From Agelas oroides (taxonomy: Eukaryota; Porifera; Demospongiae; Agelasida; Agelasidae), in contig OX422188.1 in NCBI GenBank assembly GCA_949130485.1, forward strand, positions 3,224,222-3,288,221: a stretch of DNA of 64,000 bases, in the 5' to 3' direction. Under the pieces are notes generated by a model. It worked only from the letters and a program-made list of their open reading frames with translations, had not been told where the DNA came from and did not search any database. Position numbers and translations under genes: made by a program. How positions within the stretch are numbered: position 1 is the stretch's first letter; every line of letters begins with the position of its first letter. Shown here in pieces: positions 1 through 41,870 of the stretch.

Positions 1-3000
1 ATGCTACATTAGCATACAGTCAATATTTAAGTGGCTGTTCTCTGACTATTTTGTGTTTTGCTCATATGAAGCCACAATTAGGCGGTTTAGATCACTGCAA
101 CCAGGACCTCTTGGTAAATTCTGTACATATGTCATTGTATTGCTGCATATACTAATACTCCAATTGTACTGGTTTGCTCCTTATCAGACCCATCTTCCTC
201 AGCCAATGCACTTAATCCCTTCTACAATATAATACATTGTCAAGCAAAAACAGCAGTTTAAAGTACCTTGGCCAACAACATTAAGCAGACGAATAGAATT
301 GCTTGAGATGAGTAACTTTGGCACATCCGTGTAGGGATCATGAGTCACCTGACTTCTTTGAGCTTGGGCACACATGTATGAATGCATGAGTACAATATGA
401 AATACATTAAATTTTCAAGAGTTTATCATTAATAGCCCAGACTAAACACACAGCATCCAATAATGCATTTAGTGATCTGTAAGAGCACTCCAACTGGTGA
501 ATGAACTACATTGTATGAATACCCATGACAAATTATGAATAAAACTTACTTGTGCATTCTACACAAATTTGCTCACCAATGTATGGATTCATTTCTTTCA
601 CCTCATCAATCCTAAAAATGTACATAATATGTTAATGTGCATGTGTGTTCATATATCCATGTGAATGTGTTGGTGCATGTATAAATTTGGCATCATAACA
701 TCGAAGTAACAACTAATGCCACTTATATTCAAGCAACTAGAAAAACAAATTTCCTTCTACATGCAGCATGTAACCCTTAAAGCTTCCCACCAAGTTCACC
801 ATAGGTAAACAAGTACGTAGGTCAACCTAAACAAGAGCTAGTTTATTGCTCTCAAAGGGGGATATCCATTTCAGATGTGTCCACTTCAAAAATAAAAGCA
901 TCTACACTTTCTAATGTGTTATATTGTTTCACATAGTGCATACATGTGTCCTCACTGCAAAAATTACTTGCGTTAAAATGACCACAAGAGCATGGTTACT
1001 GCAGTTTCAAGGTTCATTGAACAGGTGGGTAGTATGATTAAAGGAATTCCAAAACACAATTATAATAAACCCCCTCATAATTCCATCTAGCTTCAAAGCG
1101 CTTGCACAGACAGTTCATATGCATCCACCTGCTGGCTATTATCAGATTCTGGTTCTGAACCAGATAATAGCCAGCAAATGGATGGTATGTATTGGCTAGC
1201 AGACAAGTATCTCTGCTAGCTCTTTGAACTTTGATGGATTGTGAGGGGGTTGATTGTGTTTTTGGTTCTTTAATCACCTGTTCAATGAACCTGAAACCGC
1301 ATTAACCTTTACTCAGTCATTTTAACCAAGTAGCTTTTGCAGTGCTCCCATATTGCTTAACTCTTTGTGCTATGCCATGCCATGTATAAACTAGTTGGCC
1401 TATACAAATACTAACAAGGTGCCAAAACAAGGCTAAGAAATATAACAATTTGTCCTTGAGTACATCAGAATTTTTATTCAATCAGTTTGATTGGTTCCTG
1501 CTTTGACTTATTTGGCCATTCCCAAAGAGAATACTCTTTCCACTGACATAAATTTACACTACTGTTGGTGTAGAGATGGGTGCTTGGGTATGAGAACAAC
1601 TTAATCAGCTCACAAGAATTACATGCCTGGTTAAGTCCACTTTTTTAGCACACTGCTTTCTTCTCAAGTACACAACTGCAATTGTAGTAATTCCAATGCA
1701 CAGAATAACAACCACCATGGCTGCAAATGTACTCCCAAGTATAACACCAACATCCACTTGAGTGGGTCCTGAGAAATTGCAAAAGAGAACTACCAATCTC
1801 AATTTAACAAATTAATTTTAGTGTCCCAAAAGTTACAACACATAGCTTAAGTGATGTGAATTAGAAAGGAAATCAGATTTCGTGCTGACAATGGACATAT
1901 CTAGGAGCTTACTTACCTGCAGTTTGTGGAGGGTTTGGAGTCATTGAGTACAAAACCAATGTAGAAAGTTGTGGTGTTGGCACTGCAGATAAGAACAAGT
2001 GGAGAATGAAACATTTTGTAGAGAATAATTCATCTATAGTGAGTGAACTGTATTCATTACACTTAAAAACTTTTCTAAAAACTCTGCAATGATCTTTTCC
2101 TATATGTTACTTTACATGGGTAGTAATGAAAGCTATGTTTGTACCCACCAACATCAACATTCTTTTAGCCAATGAAATCGTGAATTAACATCTTGTATTT
2201 ACTACTCATGAGGTAGGTTTATAATTCAATCTGTTGTTCTCTCACGATTGTAACTTTGTGTATGTTTGTGAAGAGGGTTTGCGAAGGTGGGAACAAATTT
2301 CTTAGCGAGCACAGTTGCAATAGAAATGCTAGTTGTCGCCTAAAAAGTGGTCAGTTTACATCCCCAAAGTCTTCTAAATGTTACTAGTGGCAGGTATACA
2401 CACGAACCAGAATGTGTGAAAGTACTACGGTAGAACAGAAAGAATGTTGTCATGAGATTTCCACTTTCAGTTCAGTGCAATACATCTTTACTTGGTAATA
2501 ATGTGATAAAGTAAATAGTTTTCAAGTGTAGTTTGACGACCGAAATTAGTTGTGCACATGACAGGAAACCCAGACTACCATAGATATACAGAACCACTAC
2601 AACAAATGCTAGAGTTGAATACTGAGATAAATGATCTTTGTAAAATACACCAAGACTGGAGATGACTAGCTGCATTTACATCATACATGGTGGTGACTTA
2701 CCCTGTAAGCTACCTCAAGTGCAACGAAAGACAGACAAGCCAGGCTTCTTAACACACACAAACAAGAGGTAAAATTTGATCTAAGCGAAGTATGCACAAA
2801 CAAGCTAATCTCCTCATGACAGGAGAGATTCCTCTGCTAGCTTAGGATGTGCATGTTTACAACACTTCAACCATGGTAGTCACCCTACATCTATAGTGAC
2901 TGTACTTGACTCCTTGAAGGTCTCAGAAACAATGTTCACAGCTACATCAGTACATCAGCTCAGTGCTCATCAATGTAGAGGGCACCAGAAGAACTATGCT

Positions 3001-41870: not shown

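Follow-up and report, generated by a model that had tools for sequence, protein, structure and literature searches.

In the Na+/Ca2+ exchanger, Calx-beta domains occur as two regulatory copies, CBD1 and CBD2, which are cytoplasmic parts of a transporter. Tandem Calx-beta repeats on the extracellular side of a membrane protein are known from the adhesion GPCR ADGRV1 (a.k.a. VLGR1) and from the FRAS1/FREM proteins. Sponge aggregation factors also contain many such repeats, together with a Wreath domain, but they are secreted and have neither a membrane span nor a kinase. Here, we describe a gene of the demosponge Agelas oroides, designated A, in which 14 domains of Calx-beta type, not all of them equally certain, are followed by a predicted single membrane span and a tyrosine kinase. 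Gene A has the domain family and, as aligned by eye, probably most of the Ca2+ ligands in common with the exchanger, but its 14 copies are extracellular. It resembles ADGRV1 and FRAS1/FREM in its tandem extracellular repeats, but its signaling would proceed through the kinase, and no seven-span (7tm) family was found in a Pfam scan of the full protein. To the repeats that it shares with the aggregation factors, it adds a membrane-span exon and a kinase.

Among the receptor tyrosine kinases with solved structures, the nearest are Met, Ron, Mer and FGFR1, which are similar to A in their complete kinase domain, HRDLAARN, DFG and PVKW motifs and two activation-loop tyrosines, and which have a single membrane span, as A is predicted to have from its sequence. 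The ectodomains differ: neither the Sema and PSI domains of Met/plexin-type receptors nor the Ig and FN3 domains of other receptor tyrosine kinases appeared in the Pfam scan of the A protein. Fusion of a tyrosine kinase to another receptor class has been reported for the GPCR-TKs of sponges and choanoflagellates (PMC12716839). Those proteins are seven-span receptors, whereas A would have a single span and a Calx-beta rod. A Halichondria study describes receptor tyrosine kinases with Ig and FN3 domains and names Calx-beta among other domains in a figure legend (PMC8242945), and the main text of a paper on holozoan tyrosine kinases does not contain the term "calx" (PMC8662651). No Calx-beta receptor tyrosine kinase was found in searches of the open-licence full-text literature; most subscription papers fall outside that scope, and papers on the kinomes of choanoflagellates or sponges may have mentioned one before. 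The pairing of an extracellular Calx-beta rod with a tyrosine kinase is, within this limited literature, a combination that did not turn up, made of kinds of part that were already known.

Structure of the receptor kinase gene

The window, i.e., the whole stretch of 64,000 nucleotides that was analysed, corresponds to C6:3224222-3288221 in a searched genome of 259 Mb on 141 contigs. Translated together with 10 kb of leftward DNA (L009), it yields 39 exons of A, which run from Met to stop over 2299 codons with every join in phase. Thirty-three of these exons lie inside the window on the minus strand, and the six kinase exons are located left of position 1. In order, they encode a putative signal peptide, a cysteine-rich segment, 27 Calx-beta-type exons, a stalk, a putative membrane span, two juxtamembrane segments and the kinase, and all 30 introns from the signal-peptide exon to the membrane exon are in phase 1. 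The first-pass annotation of this DNA had proposed 33 minus-strand exons without a frame break, not all of which it listed; our model agrees with it in their number, both ends, order and phases. The features are as follows, in window positions except for the kinase.

41810..41870, minus: exon 1, start codon and signal peptide MNTAAMKLLYLVVLMGCSGQ, the latter read by eye
33855..33995, minus: exon 2, N-terminal, cysteine-rich, no Pfam match
26681..27485, minus: domain 1 (exons 27485-27303, 26905-26681), divergent Calx-beta-like
22798..25651, minus: domain 2 (exons 25651-25487, 22998-22798)
20139..20519, minus: domain 3, held whole by a single exon
18880..19497, minus: domain 4 (exons 19497-19339, 19191-18880)
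15172..15920, minus: domain 5 (exons 15920-15771, 15399-15172), Calx-beta, 61.6 bits
3516..14883, minus: domains 6-14, each of an "a" and a "b" exon, as in the next nine lines
14883-14731/13975-13754, minus: domain 6
13676-13530/13301-13074, minus: domain 7
12075-11917/10802-10581, minus: domain 8
10361-10224/10108-9890, minus: domain 9
9715-9563/8610-8389, minus: domain 10
7824-7681/7590-7369, minus: domain 11
7221-7081/5648-5427, minus: domain 12
5354-5196/5004-4783, minus: domain 13
4509-4357/3737-3516, minus: domain 14
1917..1982, minus: stalk exon
1627..1768, minus: membrane-span exon, GVILGSTFAAMVVVILCIGITTIAVVYL followed by RRKQCAKK, read by eye, GC donor
577..611, minus: juxtamembrane exon 1
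267..362, minus: juxtamembrane exon 2, final residues IRLLNVVGQ|G
L009 9867-9784, 8966-8746, 7683-7571, 7053-6888, 6073-5931, 5244-4965, minus (C6 3224088-3219186): kinase exons K1-K6

A tyrosine kinase had been surmised earlier to follow the residues IRLLNVVGQG, and it is indeed present there, in six in-frame exons. The receptor had also been put forward as a sponge-specific candidate, which it may be. The frame is carried over from the juxtamembrane exon 362-267 into K1, which completes GQGEFGVVYKA (GQGEFGVVYKAHLVK...VAVK); K3 has HRDLAARN, K4 has DFG and PVKWLALEAL, and K6 closes with a stop codon. Leftward translation of the minus strand thus recovered the motifs that had been anticipated, FG.V, HRDLAARN and DFG, with VAVK in place of the expected VAIK. 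VAVK, HRDLAARN, DFG and PVKW are at most 3.2 kb left of the window, and the stop codon is ~5.0 kb left of it. In the whole protein, Pfam recognizes Calx-beta (465 bits, 10 stretches) and PK_Tyr_Ser-Thr (PF07714, E 2.8e-83), the latter over positions 2-256 of a profile of 258; the tyrosine kinase domain is complete. Matches to CBM32 and VirB8 were below the cut-off and were treated as noise. The catalytic landmarks are K1989, HRDLAARN at 2095 and DFG at 2115, and the two activation-loop tyrosines are Y2123 and Y2127. Since a single tyrosine, Y2242, follows the kinase, the receptor's own cytoplasmic tail would offer few docking sites. Among the best 60 of 2296 PDB matches, the nearest single-copy kinases were Met (222 bits), Mer (214), Ron (212) and FGFR1 (211), and the top row (341 bits) was a chain in which the EGFR kinase occurs twice, at 169 bits per copy. 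As Met, Mer, Ron and FGFR1 are about equally close, within ~11 bits, the attempt to place the kinase in one known family was dropped.

Exons were also scored with a model that had been trained on A's own exons, which makes A's scores partly circular. With this model, 26 exons on the minus strand of positions 1-42000 scored above 10 and 22 above 20, as opposed to none above either value on the plus strand of the same interval, and exons comparable to those of A were not found on the plus strand of the window. In dinucleotide shuffles, one exon above 10 appeared in each of 4 out of 20, with a maximum of 14.5. The GC donor of the membrane-span exon is replaced by GT at the same place in B, one of the two full-length paralogues (B and C) discussed below. 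A second GC donor is found at K2; in paralogue C, the frame beyond the K2 donor soon hits a stop. Of the 20 residues of exon 1, 19 are identical in C and 12 in B, and the DNA 5' of A's start codon is gapped relative to C. The membrane span comprises 28 mostly apolar residues ahead of RRKQCAKK, as read from the sequence. We are highly confident that A is a single demosponge gene and that its product, 2299 residues long, is a receptor tyrosine kinase with one membrane pass and a short acidic tail; this confidence covers the receptor-kinase statement only.

The intron between the membrane and juxtamembrane exons contains, at 953-1344, a repeat of ~390 bp, which is the target of most of 84 matches and also matches itself on the opposite strand (69%), as a MITE might. 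Elsewhere in the window, 57948-57615 (minus) is an isolated open stretch, DLAEPVYLAGCKALGLINKLLTGPLWRV..., possibly derived from a mobile element. A frame at 40627-39902 (minus) is similar to one at L026 6334-6894 (plus), near a kinase locus on contig C21; by eye, both resemble the end of a LINE-type polyprotein.

Calx-beta domains of the ectodomain

The annotation had counted 14 Calx-beta domains, and this count holds up for the larger, membrane-proximal part of the ectodomain. When scanned singly, 10 of the 14 domains, D5-D14, pass the curated Pfam cut-off of 27 bits for Calx-beta (PF03160) with ~47 to 62 bits, D6-D14 scoring 47.2-61.7 bits. These ten are firmly identified as Calx-beta by the profile. 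The remaining four are divergent. D2 (20.2 bits) and D4 (18.8 bits) are below the cut-off, and D1, scanned with the signal peptide and the cysteine-rich exon, and D3 had no Pfam match even at E 1. In profile-profile comparison with D5-D14 by hhalign, E was 1.6e-15 for D4, 2.4e-7 for D3 and 1.8e-5 for D1 (probability 78%), and D2 gave a weak match with E 0.0017 (probability 15%). On these profiles, D3 and D4 are likely Calx-beta domains, and for D1 and D2 the assignment is only plausible. An AlphaFold2 model of D3 from a three-sequence alignment had a mean pLDDT of 30.9 and was discarded. A sequence search of the PDB with the Calx-beta domains gave a weak alignment with NCX1 (best E 0.014).

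Paralogues and shared exon modules

Both full-length paralogues are on the same contig as A, B within C6:2971000-3031000 (minus) and C within C6:1027500-1087400 (plus). They have the same order as A with 15 instead of 14 Calx-beta-type domains, A having no counterpart to one of their "b" exons and one of their "a" exons; as these exons are phase-symmetric, the difference stays in frame. Every exon of A is matched in B and C, save K6 in B, which is beyond the stretch compared, and K6 was therefore compared with C only. The A-C pairing of repeats 7b-14 is ambiguous; these repeats were left out of the A-C rates and compared with B only, A's last "b" exon being paired by best match with the last "b" exon of B. 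Partial reading of a fourth locus, with kinase exons at C6:2771041-2777201, revealed exons for Calx-beta, the stalk, the membrane span, the juxtamembrane segment and the cysteine-rich part, arranged as in A.

For the kinase, dN/dS was 0.10 between A and C (K1-K5, bootstrap 0.03-0.22, 239 codons) and 0.22 between A and B (0.08-0.46). At the level of coding sequence, this demonstrates purifying selection on the kinase. For D1-D4, dN/dS was 0.72 against C (0.57-0.91, 517 codons) and 0.78 against B (0.51-1.21). D1 alone had 1.07 (0.68-1.77) against C and, as a second value, 0.96 (0.56-1.96). In small groups of the A-B comparison, D3 reached 1.53 (0.75-5.1) and D5 1.46 (0.35-4.2), and the signal peptide with the cysteine exon had 1.24 against C. 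In none of the exon groups of either comparison was the interval wholly above 1. The synonymous distance between A and C was 0.51 in D1-D4, 0.12 in D5-7a and 0.15 in the kinase, with extremes of 0.009 (D4, A versus B) and 0.71 (D3, A versus C). Because the synonymous divergence changes abruptly from one part of the gene to the next, the copies appear to be mosaic, as gene conversion would make them.

The exon joins were read from DNA, which leaves room for two adjacent genes, one for a Calx-beta surface protein and one for a separate kinase, that were wrongly joined. The 1.5-kb intron between the last Calx-beta exon and the stalk, the longest downstream of the repeats, would fit such a pair, as would an exon of the tyrosine-tail type of kinase-less neighbours that is found 0.56 kb past the kinase stop. 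However, the membrane and juxtamembrane exons keep one frame into the kinase, B, C and the partly read fourth locus have the same succession from Calx-beta through stalk, membrane span and juxtamembrane segment to the kinase, exon sets resembling this membrane-to-kinase part are found behind different ectodomains at other places in the genome, and no second signal-peptide exon was noticed in an unsystematic reading. We consider a wrong join most improbable. It is also very unlikely that A is a recent pseudogene or a non-expressed copy of a functional paralogue. The region is strongly duplicated, with A-B DNA identities of 97-99% along several kb-long stretches, A is one domain short of B and C, and two of its introns have GC donors, but its 2299 codons are uninterrupted by stops or frameshifts, the missing domain leaves the frame intact, and the kinase ratios given above are low. 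A single, functional receptor kinase gene is the reading followed below.

The tail-like exon just mentioned, at L009 ~4110-4410 (minus; window -5590 to -5890), is an open exon of ~95 codons on the same strand as A that resembles the tyrosine-rich tail family; it is possibly a remnant of a neighbour or an alternative 3' end without a kinase. Upstream, the window contains at 44330-43830 (minus) the 3' end of a same-strand neighbour with a tyrosine-rich tail, which, relative to paralogue C, is split by an unrelated, stop-containing stretch. Inclusion of the upstream same-strand Ig/FN3 gene in A was rejected, since a stop-bearing tyrosine-tail exon intervenes in paralogue C and, in interrupted form, in the window.

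The kinase exons of A have relatives throughout the genome. K2 is matched at 70% identity or more at 16 loci at least, including A, on contigs C1, C6, C8, C20 and C21, and at more loci at lower identity; this number is a lower bound because 138 of 998 candidates were scored. At five kinase loci outside C6, upstream ectodomain exons were assigned by strand, order and proximity rather than from full gene models. At C1:13.24 Mb, EGF exons precede the membrane span, with Sushi and ricin-lectin-like frames farther upstream, and at C15:1.6 Mb, Ig exons precede it. Two loci on C20 have NIDO, SRCR and Calx-beta upstream on the same strand, with three Calx-beta stretches at one locus and one at the other. 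As judged from these exons, they are a second Calx-beta-kinase arrangement. They are located at C20:6118000-6126999 (L036, minus) and 6188400-6197299 (L037, plus). In L036, but not in L037, a membrane span was read. The locus on C21 has a membrane span, and no ectodomain was recognized within 9 kb. Clusters of tyrosine kinases mostly 35-40% identical to that of A were seen at C15:1231453-1494535, C8:4862821-5935812 and C10:7503299-7551104; as they match in uninterrupted frames several hundred codons in length, their kinase domains are apparently intronless.

Other exons of A are concentrated on its own contig. The cysteine-rich exon 2 has 15 matching places, including A, all on C6; two additional matches are signal-peptide exons. 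Tyrosine-rich tails without a kinase gave 11 matches, 10 of them on C6. Among the matches listed, nine of these tails are preceded on their strand, at a distance of up to 11 kb, by a Calx-beta match belonging to another gene; for one, A's own D14 is the nearest, with the kinase lying between, and one, at C6:2631400, has none. In three of these nine cases, a membrane exon was identified as well. The gene with the tail at C6:1047960, one of the nine, also has Ig and FN3 exons. Most likely, A arose by phase-1 exon shuffling, in which a dispersed module of membrane span and kinase was placed downstream of a Calx-beta ectodomain that came from the cluster on this one contig.

Silicateins are demosponge proteins, and a papain-family exon of silicatein type, GQCGASYAFSAMGALEGA, is found at C4:288397. 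Hand-joined to the next exon, it scored 104.8 bits with silicatein alpha (6zq3) versus 74.8 with cathepsin L, the next-best chain. The exon thus marks the genome as most likely that of a siliceous demosponge and supports the earlier attribution of the receptor to a sponge. The exons at C11:396556 and C4:13766 were rejected as silicatein, as they are of the ordinary cathepsin type (GQCGSCWAFS).

Calcium, cell contact and a possible role

In CBD1 of NCX1, the Ca2+-binding positions are E385, D446, D447, I449, E451, D498, D499 and D500 (PMC3386913). The correspondence with A was drawn by eye on a weak NCX1 alignment (E 0.014 or higher); on this basis, the counterparts of E385, D447, E451 and D498 are present in all ten domains D5-D14 and that of D500 in nine. 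The counterparts of D446 and D499 are variable, D446 being D in four, N in five and I in one of the ten, so the number of sites and their affinity may differ from those in CBD1. D1-D4 retain the D-x-x-x-E-x-x-E loop, and the full C-terminal acidic set is missing in D1, D2 and D4. With the ligand residues kept for the most part, the Calx-beta domains of A are predicted to bind Ca2+.

The repeats may form a long rod, which Ca2+ at the ends of the domains would make stiffer. A ligand, or similar ectodomains on a neighboring cell or in the matrix, could bring two receptors together, whereupon the kinases would trans-phosphorylate each other on the activation-loop tyrosines Y2123 and Y2127. These steps, contact-driven dimerization and the part of Ca2+ in it, are proposed tentatively, at somewhat less than an even chance. 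The kinase might then phosphorylate the tyrosine-rich tails of kinase-less Calx-beta receptors from the same gene cluster, and SH2/PTB adaptors would be recruited to the phosphorylated tails. Substrates in trans would be attractive because A has one tyrosine after its kinase; phosphorylation of the neighbors' tails is a conjecture that we regard as distinctly unlikely to hold in this form.

The Calx-beta domains could alternatively be purely structural, binding no Ca2+ of relevance to signaling, in which case A would be an ordinary receptor tyrosine kinase with a spacer-like ectodomain. The variation at the D446 and D499 positions in D5-D14 and the incomplete acidic sets of D1, D2 and D4, despite the loop kept in D1-D4, would agree with this, but four ligand positions kept in all ten domains and a fifth in nine argue against it, and we consider it rather unlikely. 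A might also be a recognition receptor, for aggregation, allorecognition or microbes, rather than a developmental growth-factor receptor. Related Calx-beta genes are clustered on one contig, with the cysteine-rich exon at 15 places, the number of domains varies among copies, the ectodomain type is common to kinase genes and tyrosine-tail genes, and sponge aggregation factors have Calx-beta repeats. The ectodomain also evolves fast, with the ratios of 1.07 and 0.96 for D1 and, against B, of 1.53 for D3 and 1.46 for D5, and the jumps in synonymous distance from 0.009 to 0.71 point to gene conversion. Against this, relaxed constraint accounts for the ectodomain equally well: no dN/dS interval exceeds 1, and that of D1-D4 together against C, 0.57-0.91, is below 1. 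A role in recognition is thus possible, but we deem it on the unlikely side. Still more speculative, and improbable as a whole, is the idea that the C6 cluster is a self/non-self or cell-sorting complex of the sponge. The kinase form, i.e., A and three paralogues, would phosphorylate a kinase-less form with multiple tyrosines, and when ectodomains of different cells match or come into contact, this would be read out as tyrosine signaling, with their diversity maintained by gene conversion and by gain and loss of domains.

The locus resembles the making of receptors by phase-1 exon shuffling: in the loci read, one kinase family stands behind four kinds of ectodomain exons, and one ectodomain type stands over two cytoplasmic kinds. 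Sponges have many tyrosine kinases without known ligands, and their cell adhesion depends on Ca2+ and on aggregation factors rich in Calx-beta. Through the Ca2+-binding type of domain that they share, A would offer a concrete, testable link between Ca2+-dependent cell contact and tyrosine signaling.
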